This document shows positions 6,179 to 17,085 of a stretch of 33,060 nucleotides of DNA, piece by piece. The position numbers were made by a program, and so were the translations under genes. The stretch's first letter is position 1, and every line of letters begins with the position of its first letter. This DNA is from a virus, in the IMG/VR virus record IMGVR_UViG_3300025101_000092, positions 1 through 33,060 of that record; one strand, given 5' to 3'. Below the pieces are notes generated by a model. It worked only from the letters and a program-made list of their open reading frames with translations. It was not told the origin of the DNA and did no database searches.

Positions 6179-6447
6179 TGAAGGATATTATTTATAAGGT
6201 GTTATGCCGCGCCCGAATTTTTTTTAGAAGTTTTAAAAAAAGAGATCCCGAGATAATGTTCCGATGGTCATCGGTTCAAGTTTGTCATAGCCTGGAATTT
6301 ATTATGAAATTAAATTCTGTGGCAAAGTCCCCAATAGAAAAGTTAAAAACTAATGACCCGATTGACGAAAGGGAGAGAAAAGATTTATTATTAATTTGCG
6401 AACAATTAGAGGAAGCCGTTGAGCAAATCAAAACTAAAGGTTCTTGA
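6178..6447 (+). CDS. Hypothetical protein, 89 aa
   Basis: Starts by TAATG overlap and ends 29 bases inside the methyltransferase gene. The N-terminus is basic and hydrophobic (YKVLCRARIFFRSFKKRDPE); the rest is a helical hairpin (ERKDLLLICEQLEEAVEQI). No membrane segment is long enough to be sure of. No family recognised. The end encodes the ribosome site used by the methyltransferase. Confidence 0.6.
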   Translation: MKDIIYKVLCRARIFFRSFKKRDPEIMFRWSSVQVCHSLEFIMKLNSVAKSPIEKLKTNDPIDERERKDLLLICEQLEEAVEQIKTKGS

Positions 6448-7690
6448 TTTATTTTCAGGGATCGGTGGATTTAGTCTAGCTTTAGAATCTACAGGTCATT
6501 TTCAAACCATTGGCTTTGTGGAAAATGATGAGTACTGTCAGGCAGTATTGCAACATCATTTTCCCGAAGTCCCGATATTAGGAGATATAAAAAATGTCAC
6601 AAAAGAAACAGTCCCGACCCGTCCAGATGTCATTTGTGGGGGTTTCCCCTGCCAACCCTTTTCAGTCGCAGGAGATCAAAGGGCGAAAGATGATCCTAGA
6701 CACCTCTGGCCAGAGATGTTGCGAATTATCAAGGAACAAAAACCCACTTGGGTTGTTGGAGAAAACGTTAGTGGACTCGTCAAATTGGGCTTGGACGAAA
6801 TACTCGATGAAATGGAGGATCAAGGCTACTCCACGAGGACGTTTAATATACCAGCTTTCTCGGTTGGCGCCCCCCACCAACGACAACGATTATGGATCAT
6901 TGGACACTTGGGCGACCCCGAACACAATGGATCACCTACCCCCGAGAGACAAAGAGGATTGCTCAAGCAACCAGAAGAACCGAAAAAACAGATCTCGATC
7001 TGGGAATCTGAGGGAACAAGTGGTGCATCAAGAGATGTGGCCAACCCCGACAACGAAAGGGTACGGTCACGCATCGGAGGGGATGACTTTGATTATGAGG
7101 AGGAAAGTGGAGAAGGGGGAGTTGACGGAGAAGGAAGCGCAGGAGATGATGAATGGTACGACACTTCGCCCACCCAGGATGAAGGAGTGGATGTTTCCGA
7201 CACCGACAACACAAGAGACCGAACACAAGAACATCAAGTTAACAAAGACGGGAAGAAGAATATCCAAGGACGGCAAGAACACACACAGTCTAAGTCTAGC
7301 AGACACGGTGCAGATGTGGCCAACCCCGAGAGCTTCAAATCCAGGGAGCAGACCGAACGGCAAGGGAGGGAAAATACTGCAAGAAGAAGTGATGATAGCA
7401 GAGGGACTAAGACAGAGAGGACAGAAACTGTTACCGACCCCAACGGCAAGGGACTACAAGGACAGAGGAAAAAATACAAACTACCAAAAAGCAAAAGAAA
7501 AAGGGAGATTGGCGGGAGCAGTTGGTGGGACATTGAACCCAACGTGGGTCGAGTGGCTTATGGGGTACCCAATAGAGTATTTAAACTCCGTGCCTTGGGA
7601 AACTCCATCATCCCGCAAATTGCACAAAAAATAGGTTATGCTATAATAGAAGCCGAAAAAAATGGATGTAAAAAAAGTAGTAAGTTTTGA
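6419..7690 (+). CDS. DNA (cytosine-5) methyltransferase
   Basis: A 423-residue C5 methyltransferase. Motif I DLFSGIGG (10-17) binds SAM; motif IV GGFPCQPFS carries the catalytic Cys78; motif VI is ENV (115-117); motif VIII is QRQRLW (154-159); motif X LGNSIIPQ (about 393-400) is at the end. Residues 165-375 form a long, charged target-recognition region with repeated A-N-P-D, S-D-T-D and T-D-P-N blocks. The start is TTG: AGAGGAAG stands seven bases upstream and motif I begins only ten residues in, leaving no room for an ATG. It may protect phage DNA from host restriction or mark it; the site is unknown. From base 6594 the same DNA is open in the +1 frame for 346 codons. Confidence 0.93.
   Translation: MSKSKLKVLDLFSGIGGFSLALESTGHFQTIGFVENDEYCQAVLQHHFPEVPILGDIKNVTKETVPTRPDVICGGFPCQPFSVAGDQRAKDDPRHLWPEMLRIIKEQKPTWVVGENVSGLVKLGLDEILDEMEDQGYSTRTFNIPAFSVGAPHQRQRLWIIGHLGDPEHNGSPTPERQRGLLKQPEEPKKQISIWESEGTSGASRDVANPDNERVRSRIGGDDFDYEEESGEGGVDGEGSAGDDEWYDTSPTQDEGVDVSDTDNTRDRTQEHQVNKDGKKNIQGRQEHTQSKSSRHGADVANPESFKSREQTERQGRENTARRSDDSRGTKTERTETVTDPNGKGLQGQRKKYKLPKSKRKREIGGSSWWDIEPNVGRVAYGVPNRVFKLRALGNSIIPQIAQKIGYAIIEAEKNGCKKSSKF
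6580..6584 (+). promoter_or_regulatory. Internal ribosome binding site AGGAG
   Basis: AGGAG followed nine bases later by an ATG in the +1 frame, inside the methyltransferase gene where the main frame reads L-G-D-I. It is the signal that could start the overprinted protein. Confidence 0.5.
6594..7634 (+). CDS. Overprinted +1-frame ORF with W-P-T-P-T repeats
   Basis: A 346-codon frame fully inside the methyltransferase gene, shifted by +1, with AGGAG nine bases before its ATG. The protein is basic. It carries five spaced W/F-P-T-P-like blocks: WATPN (about 106), WPTPT (149), FPTPT (201), WPTPR (242) and LPTPTARDYKD (280-290). Near the end is LNPTWVEWLMGYP (314-326). An upstream block, YSMKWRIKATPRGRLIYQL (70-88), and these motifs resemble phage proteins I remember being annotated as hypothetical. 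Those may themselves be frames overlapping methyltransferases. Either this is true dual coding or a frame kept open by the repeated target-recognition codons. Function unknown. Confidence 0.45.
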   Translation: MSQKKQSRPVQMSFVGVSPANPFQSQEIKGRKMILDTSGQRCCELSRNKNPLGLLEKTLVDSSNWAWTKYSMKWRIKATPRGRLIYQLSRLAPPTNDNDYGSLDTWATPNTMDHLPPRDKEDCSSNQKNRKNRSRSGNLREQVVHQEMWPTPTTKGYGHASEGMTLIMRRKVEKGELTEKEAQEMMNGTTLRPPRMKEWMFPTPTTQETEHKNIKLTKTGRRISKDGKNTHSLSLADTVQMWPTPRASNPGSRPNGKGGKILQEEVMIAEGLRQRGQKLLPTPTARDYKDRGKNTNYQKAKEKGRLAGAVGGTLNPTWVEWLMGYPIEYLNSVPWETPSSRKLHKK

Positions 7691-12700: not shown

Positions 12701-12748
12701 ATGAATAATATGTACATTATATACTGCTATGAAAATAAAATACAATAG
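12701..12748 (+). CDS. Possible 15-aa leader peptide
   Basis: GGAG at 12688-12691 stands nine bases before an ATG that opens a 15-codon frame (M-N-N-M-Y-I-I-Y-C-Y-E-N-K-I-Q). It overlaps the start of the SET gene by 20 bases in another frame. The SET ATG itself has no ribosome site, so ribosomes finishing this short frame could supply it. It may instead be chance. Confidence 0.35.
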   Translation: MNNMYIIYCYENKIQ

Positions 12749-13046
12749 ATTTTACTATAAGCCTTTACCAGAAGAAGTCTGTATAAAAGAAAGCAAGGTT
12801 GATGGTCACGGAATATTTGCTTCTACAAACATAAAAGCACAAACAAATTTAGGAGCAACGCATATAAAAGTTCCAATGATTATTACCTATATTAGAACAC
12901 CACTTGGTGGCTTTATAAATCACTCAAATAAACCAAATTGTTTTTTAGCTTGCACACAAGATTGGGATGATTATTTAATTTACAATGTCATTACCAAAAG
13001 ACCAATTGTTAAGGGCGAGGAACTATTACTAGATTACGAGAAGTGA
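12729..13046 (+). CDS. SET-domain protein (putative protein lysine methyltransferase)
   Basis: A 105-residue minimal SET domain. VDGHGIFA (24-31) matches the G-x-G SAM-binding start, INHSNKPNC (63-71) is the pseudoknot N-H-S motif, and KGEELLLDYE (95-104) the closing E-E-L-x-x-x-Y block. SET enzymes transfer methyl groups to lysines; small free-standing ones occur in bacteria and marine phages, with unknown targets (host ribosomal, nucleoid or phage proteins are candidates). There is no pre-SET or post-SET zinc cluster. It sits between the SSB-like and primase genes. The ATG lacks a ribosome site; see the leader frame. Confidence 0.85.
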   Translation: MKIKYNRFYYKPLPEEVCIKESKVDGHGIFASTNIKAQTNLGATHIKVPMIITYIRTPLGGFINHSNKPNCFLACTQDWDDYLIYNVITKRPIVKGEELLLDYEK

Positions 13047-16423: not shown

Positions 16424-16526
16424 TTTACAAGGTACAATCATAAGCAAGACTTATTTTAAAGCACTCAGTGGTCATTTAAACGGGTTTTTATTTAAAACAC
16501 AAGCTCACAGGGGGTTTTGTGGATAA
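16416..16526 (+). CDS. Possible 36-aa protein
   Basis: An ATG overlapping the DUF3310 stop opens a 36-codon frame that ends eight bases inside the adenine methyltransferase gene. Otherwise 95 bases would be untranslated in a fully packed operon. It has no ribosome site of its own (coupling possible), and the protein (DLQGTIISKTYFKALSGHL) matches nothing I know. Confidence 0.3.
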   Translation: MNDLQGTIISKTYFKALSGHLNGFLFKTQAHRGFCG

Positions 16527-17085
16527 GATTAGTTTGCCCAGAGGTAAATACAATATTATTTACGCAGATCCACCTTGGCAATACAAAACATACTCTGGAG
16601 ATTTGGTTACACCGTATCCGATTATGAAAGATGAAGACATTTATAGTATGCCAGTACAAGAGATAGCAAATGATAATTGTATTTTATTAATGTGGGTTAC
16701 GTTTCCTAAATTAATAGAAGGCATTGAAACAATGAAGCGTTGGGGTTTTACATATAAGACGTGTGCCTTTGCTTGGATAAAGACAAATAAAAAATTTAAC
16801 ACCAAACAGTTTACGTTTTTACCAGAAGATAACTTTTCATCTTTTTGGGGTATGGGGTATTGGACGAGAGCTAATGCAGAACTTTGTTTGTTAGGTACAG
16901 TTGGTAAACCTAAACGTGTATCAAAGTCTGTGCATCAGGTTATCTATGAGCCAATAGAAAGACACTCAAAGAAGCCAGACTGTGTAAGAGATAAAATAGT
17001 TGAGTTATGTGGGGATTTGCCTAGAATAGAGTTATTCGCAAGACAAAAGACCCCAGGGTGGGTGACTTGGGGAAATGAGGTATAA
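16519..17085 (+). CDS. MT-A70 family DNA adenine N6-methyltransferase
   Basis: A 188-residue protein with the catalytic DPPW motif at 17-20, the MT-A70 core ILLMWVTFPKLIEGIETM (about 55-72) and the late block HSKKPDCVRDKIVELCG, followed by RIELFARQKTPGW, where SAM contacts lie in this family. It methylates adenine N6 in DNA; the target is unknown. The start is GTG behind AGGGGG; no ATG fits upstream of DPPW. With the cytosine methyltransferase at 6419 it gives the phage two kinds of DNA marking, probably against host restriction. Its stop overlaps the polymerase ATG (TAATG). Confidence 0.9.
   Translation: MDKISLPRGKYNIIYADPPWQYKTYSGDLVTPYPIMKDEDIYSMPVQEIANDNCILLMWVTFPKLIEGIETMKRWGFTYKTCAFAWIKTNKKFNTKQFTFLPEDNFSSFWGMGYWTRANAELCLLGTVGKPKRVSKSVHQVIYEPIERHSKKPDCVRDKIVELCGDLPRIELFARQKTPGWVTWGNEV

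Follow-up and report, generated by a model that had tools for sequence, protein, structure and literature searches.

Overlapping frames at the methyltransferase locus

The window analyzed here is the whole 33,060-base virus record IMGVR_UViG_3300025101_000092 of IMG/VR, and the element in question is an open reading frame (ORF) of 346 codons, called W, which lies in the +1 frame inside the gene of a C5 cytosine methyltransferase (MTase). The MTase frame matches PF00145 (E = 7.6e-50), TIGR00675 (8.6e-40) and PHROG 363 (3.7e-76) and carries the C5 motifs I, IV (PCQ), VI (ENV), VIII and X in this order; its TTG start at 6419 is the choice of the ORF tool and is unproven. W is open from an ATG at 6594 to the stop at 7632-7634 and matches PHROG 1008 (E = 1.5e-23).

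These coordinates agree with an initial annotation of this DNA, which had also pointed out an AGGAG nine bases before the ATG of W and a stretch encoding V-A-N-P-D in the MTase frame but W-P-T-P-T in that of W. Both are present, the latter at 7037-7051. Furthermore, five W/F-P-T-P blocks had been described; the number holds, whereas the forms are four W/F/L-P-T-P blocks (WPTP at 7038, FPTP at 7194, WPTP at 7317 and LPTP at 7431) plus one W-A-T-P (WATP at 6909). The guanine-plus-cytosine fraction at the third codon position of the MTase rises from 0.26 upstream of the overlap to 0.47 within it, and four other genes of the window range from 0.19 to 0.39. The features of the locus are as follows.

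6419-7690 (+): C5 cytosine MTase ORF, 423 aa with the TTG start assumed (PF00145, TIGR00675, PHROG 363)
6446-6472 (+): MTase motif I, DLFSGIGGF
6580-6584 (+): Shine-Dalgarno-like AGGAG for W, within the MTase coding sequence, nine bases 5' of the ATG
6594-7634 (+): W, overprinted +1-frame ORF, proposed recognition subunit, 346 aa, inside the MTase ORF
6638-6664 (+): MTase motif IV, GGFPCQPFS
6702-6908 (+): W N-terminal part (TSGQRC...WRIKATPRGRLIYQL), faces the MTase core up to motif VIII
6758-6769 (+): MTase motif VI, GENV
6878-6898 (+): MTase motif VIII, QRQRLWI
6909-7037 (+): W cassette 1 (WATPNTMDHLPP...NLREQV); family with 80 members in 79 of 174 W proteins
6920-7561 (+): MTase-frame reading of the cassette region, residues 168-381, predicted to be disordered
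7038-7193 (+): W cassette 2 (WPTPTTKGYGHASEG...); family found in 37 loci
7194-7316 (+): W cassette 3 (FPTPTTQETEH...SLADTV)
7317-7430 (+): W cassette 4 (WPTPRASNPGSRPNGKGGKILQEEV...); the close relatives L082 and L083 lack it
7431-7532 (+): W cassette 5 (LPTPTARDYKD...LAGAV)
7533-7571 (+): W end element LNPTWVEWLMGYP, motif-IX-like; faces EPNVGRVAYGVP of the MTase frame
7535-7579 (+): EPNVGRVAYGVPNRV of the MTase frame
7586-7618 (+): MTase motif X, LRALGNSIIPQ

W is a selected coding frame

W is a conserved and selected protein-coding frame and not a shadow of the MTase gene. Within the window, none of 5,000 MTase-preserving recodings reaches the length of W under either codon model, the longest being 269 codons if the gene's own codons are shuffled and 186 with the codon usage of the window. 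For bacterial loci, 200 synonymous MTase recodings per locus were scored, with stops forgiven, against a W profile that contained no sequences other than viral ones and that of the window. Here, the real +1 frame outscores all 200 recodings in 76 of 77 loci (median z 12.7), which argues against W being a shadow ORF that is conserved only via the MTase protein and its codon usage. When the regions were scored separately against 100 recodings, the real frame ranked above every recoding in 37 of 37 loci for the part after motif VIII and in 33 of 41 for the part facing the MTase core.

Per-frame selection was assessed on 15 independent pairs, each substitution being assigned by whether it is nonsynonymous (N) or synonymous (S) in each of the two frames. 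Changes that alter W are much rarer in the overlap. After motif VIII, the dNN/dNS ratio of W is 0.27 (0.23-0.32) and the dNN/dSN ratio of the MTase is 0.90 (0.79-1.03), in the core region the values are 0.24 for the MTase and 0.56 (0.46-0.68) for W, and at the 3' end of the overlap both frames are near 0.25-0.30. These ratios indicate that in the region normally called the target recognition domain (TRD) W is the selected protein and the MTase reading is nearly free. A shadow ORF would be in line with the stronger constraint on the MTase frame in the core and with W motifs that face conserved MTase motifs, such as LNPxWVEWLMGYP opposite EPNVGRVAYGVP. It is contradicted by the near-neutral MTase frame after motif VIII, by the conserved internal Shine-Dalgarno sequence and by W cassettes that lie outside the MTase ORF or in split loci with a stop-filled MTase frame (see below). 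Since the constraint on W exceeds that on the MTase, the shadow explanation is taken as refuted and retains virtually no probability.

In 76 of 85 viral loci, a candidate W start within the MTase gene is preceded at 3-12 bases by a Shine-Dalgarno match of five bases or more, often as AAGGAG with a spacing of 7. This count takes the best of several candidate starts and is on the generous side; more weight belongs to the recurring AAGGAG-N7-ATG. In a further group (L185, L271), the start codons of MTase and W are only four bases apart (ATGAATGAG).

The distribution of W was determined by searching viral contigs with W and, separately, with the MTase, and comparing the resulting pairs. In every checked locus holding both genes, W overlaps the MTase in the +1 register. 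Loci with W broken by stops next to an intact MTase were sought, and none occurred among 80 viral loci picked by MTase motif patterns alone, each of which has one uninterrupted W ORF (80/80); these loci were ranked by likeness to the MTase of the window and thus sample its subfamily. The two loci with a stop inside W, L074 and L075, are broken after the complete LNPxWVEWLMGYP end. Thereby, the overlap survey and the per-frame selection both favor dual coding over the rival view, raised in the initial annotation, of W as an MTase shadow, and they support its proposal of a conserved dual-coding module of an MTase and a partner.

The family is represented by hundreds of viral loci and by prophage-like loci from more than 10 bacterial phyla. 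According to the record titles, the bacterial loci belong to Bacillota, Bacteroidota, Pseudomonadota, Spirochaetota, Actinomycetota, Verrucomicrobiota, Nitrospirota, Synergistota, Chloroflexota, Acidobacteriota, Planctomycetota and others. Nearly all of them overlap a C5 MTase as in the window, and the exceptions include the split loci. Among 200 genomes from the family of a Paraburkholderia genome, all three close members of the MTase subfamily carry W and 17 other C5 MTases do not; therefore W is tied to one MTase subfamily and not to C5 MTases generally. In E. coli, the L185 locus has DNA-level relatives in only 4 of 5,426 genomes, where they are annotated as MTase, and a plasmid search returned few relatives, none of them in E. 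coli.

No standalone W without an MTase was found among the loci examined, and in none of 159 loci do the MTase core and W share one ORF or frame. Loci without a detected MTase core are cut at a contig edge (L514, L541, L550) or deletion-like (L509, L537). In L509 and L537, almost nothing separates the MTase start region from the LNPDWVEW element and motif X, and both loci look like internal deletions. Single stops within the MTase frame were also observed. In L119, W is intact beside one such stop, possibly a decaying copy or one with a sequencing error; in L143 and L166, both metagenome-assembled genomes of Synergistaceae, one stop lies at the same place of the core (profile positions 99/100), possibly a reassigned stop codon.

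Proposed position of W in the enzyme

In C5 MTases, the variable region between motifs VIII and IX accounts for most of the specificity, and motif X is part of the large catalytic domain (PMC3404938). In the AlphaFold2 (AF2) model of the MTase of the window, residues 1-166 are mostly confident, residues 168-381 are disordered with a predicted local distance difference test score (pLDDT) of mostly 30-50, and residues 386-421 are helical. The underlying alignment has only 54 rows in which the cassettes align poorly, and low confidence alone is no proof of disorder. By Foldseek, the model aligns to M.HhaI and M.HaeIII over about 170 residues only. Furthermore, the VILMFWY content of the stretch between VIII and IX is 15% compared to 27% in canonical MTases from the same searches (p about 1e-14). 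Taken together, the disorder, the short Foldseek match and the near-neutral evolution reveal no folded TRD between motifs VIII and IX of the MTase chain. By its catalytic motifs this chain is still a C5 MTase, but one without a recognition part.

W, on the other side, shows an ordered layout: an N-terminal part is followed by cassettes that start with [WFL]PTPxAxD and end with L...V, and then by the element LNPxWVEWLMGYPxGW, of which eight columns are invariant in 54 sequences. In 174 W proteins, 613 cassettes with a median of 40 aa were counted, mostly two to six per protein (range 1-9), and single-linkage clustering at 50% yields 142 families. Like cassettes with 75-94% identity occur at differing array positions and on backbones that share only 20-37% identity. 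As an example, a virus contig (L006) and a Paraburkholderia locus (L173) have a common cassette of 81% identity on backbones of 21%, and the family of cassette 2 of the window occupies array positions 1, 2, 3 and 5, with 78% identity across backbones only 21% identical. The W cassettes are thus mobile modules, which move between backbones.

One long cassette holds a helix-turn-helix (HTH)-like segment, with only weak scores against Pfam HTH families. This segment is also present inside an N6/N4 DNA methylase of Staphylococcus phage Alsa_4 (L188:1422-2564), where it sits between the SPPY motif and the C-terminal DPFIGSGTT motif. Amino-MTases usually hold their recognition part between such motifs, and by our reading of the sequence the HTH-like segment of Alsa_4 would be placed in the TRD position.

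In six loci (L028, L041, L090, L092, L096, L097), W continues 268-694 bases past the MTase stop with further cassettes. The frames were spelled out for four of them (L028, L090, L092, L097), and there the MTase frame along the W tail is full of stops. The tails of W ORFs with such extra cassettes (L092:2559-4364, L090:1368-2744, L028:475-2208) may be landing sites for new cassettes.

A second arrangement is found in 36 split loci, including L173 on a Paraburkholderia chromosome; some of these contigs are near-duplicates, and the independent cases are fewer than 36. Here, the MTase frame closes downstream of motif VIII; from there to the LNP element it has 381 stops in 5,049 codons, and W stays open. 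The second ORF runs in the order cassettes, LNPxWVEWLMGxPxGW, a spacer and RVxRLKxxGNxxVP (motif X), with W in frame with motif X. This is the canonical order of TRD, IX and X with the cassettes in the TRD slot. In the following, loci of the window kind, with motif X in the MTase frame, are called type 1 and the split relatives type 2.

In type 2 loci, one programmed ribosomal frameshift after motif VIII would yield a single chain in complete canonical order (I-VIII, cassettes, IX-X). Such a joining of the frames is opposed by the conserved Shine-Dalgarno sequence and start of W and by its constrained N-terminal part opposite the MTase core, which would be useless to a fusion; moreover, type 1 loci would require a second shift back. 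We regard frameshifting as extremely unlikely.

Separate chains are known for this enzyme class. The gene of the large M.EcoHK31I chain also encodes the small chain, in a different frame. M.EcoHK31I and M.AquI are both two-polypeptide C5 MTases; in the former, motifs I-VIII and X are located in one chain and motif IX alone in the small (beta) chain, and in the latter, the catalytic chain contains I-VIII and the second chain the rest of the variable region plus IX-X (PMC3404938). The window resembles M.EcoHK31I (YGGCCR) in its two proposed chains, with I-VIII and X in the large-chain frame. In contrast to M.EcoHK31I, the 'TRD' of the large chain in the window is near neutral and disordered, W is a variable cassette array and the W family is widespread in phages. 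M.AquI (CYCGRG) with its I-VIII versus rest of variable region plus IX-X is like the type 2 relatives and not like the window, which is type 1; in type 2, however, the start of the second ORF lies far upstream, within the catalytic ORF, and this second ORF includes a cassette array. Compared with both enzymes, the novelty lies in the scale, in an array of mobile cassettes and in the near-neutral 'TRD'.

Since a protein bearing motif X can form an enzyme only together with the catalytic chain, W is very likely a subunit of the MTase. We consider it probable that the locus encodes a two-polypeptide C5 MTase whose chains share the same DNA and in which W supplies recognition in trans. Mechanistically, the MTase frame would give rise to a catalytic subunit with the S-adenosylmethionine-binding and catalytic motifs I-VIII, an unstructured spacer and motif X. 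From its own internal Shine-Dalgarno sequence and ATG, the +1 frame would produce W with its N-terminal part, one to nine exchangeable cassettes of about 40 aa and the LNP element at the place of motif IX. W would then join the catalytic chain and provide sequence recognition, different cassettes probably reading different targets as mini-TRDs, and a swap or gain of cassettes would let the phage shield its DNA from different restriction enzymes. That W is translated, forms a heterodimer with the MTase chain, recognizes DNA through its cassettes and takes part in anti-restriction is inferred.

Several observations weigh against this proposal. By hhalign, the LNP element is placed on motif IX of canonical MTases and only there, but the match is not significant (E = 0.018, probability 2.6%), therefore it is chiefly the order of the elements and the precedent that support the assignment to motif IX. 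The AF2 model of W has a low pLDDT (57) and is too weak to support a DNA-binding fold; a hairpin at residues 71-90 is one of its two more confident parts. W has no match in Pfam, NCBIfam or PDB. Furthermore, the modelled disorder of the MTase could partly stem from a shallow alignment of shuffled cassettes, and the TRD of M.EcoHK31I has been predicted in the large chain, unlike the reading given here (PMC3404938).

W might also be a real protein with another job, for instance regulating or inhibiting the MTase, or counteracting restriction while merely travelling along with it. This would suit a basic protein with neither a confident fold nor a functional match, and the MTase could retain a weak or non-specific DNA-binding mode. 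The motif X that W carries in the split loci, which a C5 MTase needs, and the cassettes filling the VIII-to-X slot beside an MTase chain without a visible TRD speak against such a job, which we consider rather unlikely.

The basic nature of the second protein had already been proposed in the initial annotation and extends to the family, in which W proteins have a median isoelectric point of 9.7 and the MTase reading of the VIII-IX region an acidic one of 5.6. Of the two roles suggested there, the partner fits the data better and the anti-defence protein less well, though the whole enzyme may serve in anti-restriction. That W has the position and the partners of a recognition subunit of the same enzyme goes beyond this annotation.

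Relation to other phage systems and significance

Exchangeable recognition modules have a precedent in the multispecific phage C5 MTases of the SPbeta/phi3T/SPR type, which contain several swappable modules of about 40 aa between motifs VIII and IX. On these enzymes, PMC12707154 cites Trautner 1996. W resembles them in having several exchangeable modules in the recognition region, if its cassettes do recognize DNA. In contrast to the multispecific enzymes, where the modules are part of the catalytic chain and frame, those of W are in the other frame and apparently in another chain.

For ShiLan, an HNH homing element located out of frame in a phage methylase has been described (PMC11855218). 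As for W, a second protein is hidden out of frame in a phage methylase and the in-frame reading is disordered (PMC11855218). This raises the question whether W or its cassettes are selfish homing elements of the same kind, as the spread of the cassettes between distant backbones would allow. The ShiLan element, however, is an inserted nuclease with a patchy distribution. W occurs throughout its MTase subfamily (80 of 80 MTase-selected viral loci), covers most of the gene and, in the 36 split loci, is joined in frame to motif X; profile searches of W returned no match to a nuclease family. Homing elements are thus very unlikely. The idea of W as a nuclease or a known fold was dropped, since Pfam, NCBIfam and PDB gave no match.

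W-frame proteins are already present in databases: PHROG 1008, 26627, 31772, 27243 and 35493 are of this kind and are named 'DNA methyltransferase' or unknown function. PHROG 1008, 31772 and 10223, which carry the label 'DNA methyltransferase', match the out-of-frame W, and automatic annotation can name the wrong frame. In Paenibacillus phage Shelly, the W ORF (SHELLY_56, L272:1417-2121) is annotated in GenBank as 'g55 internal gene', hypothetical protein, and the Paenibacillus phage papers do not discuss this internal gene. In the open-licence literature, no description of W as a conserved partner, as a cassette array or of a near-neutral 'TRD' was found, nor any role assigned to the overlap; the work on ShiLan came closest. 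In bacteria and phages, few long same-strand overlaps are known in which both frames are under strong selection.

The window contains two further genes of note. At 16519-17085 (+), an MT-A70 adenine MTase is encoded (PF05063, E = 6.9e-30), giving the phage two different DNA-modification genes; this fits a DNA-modification strategy but is no proof of one. At 12729-13046 (+), a SET-domain protein of 105 aa (PF00856, E = 2e-10), unusual in a phage, adjoins an AEP-TOTE primase gene.

With regard to the family as a whole, we lean slightly toward the view that a large and old class of phage MTases holds its specificity in a separate out-of-frame protein of tradable mini recognition cassettes, the 'TRD' of the MTase being an unstructured by-product of coding it. 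This suggests that many annotated phage C5 MTases are half an enzyme, and that the annotated protein alone may be inactive or without specificity. The names given in PHROG and GenBank mix the two frames. The cassettes themselves could open a modular and transferable recognition code for C5 methylation.
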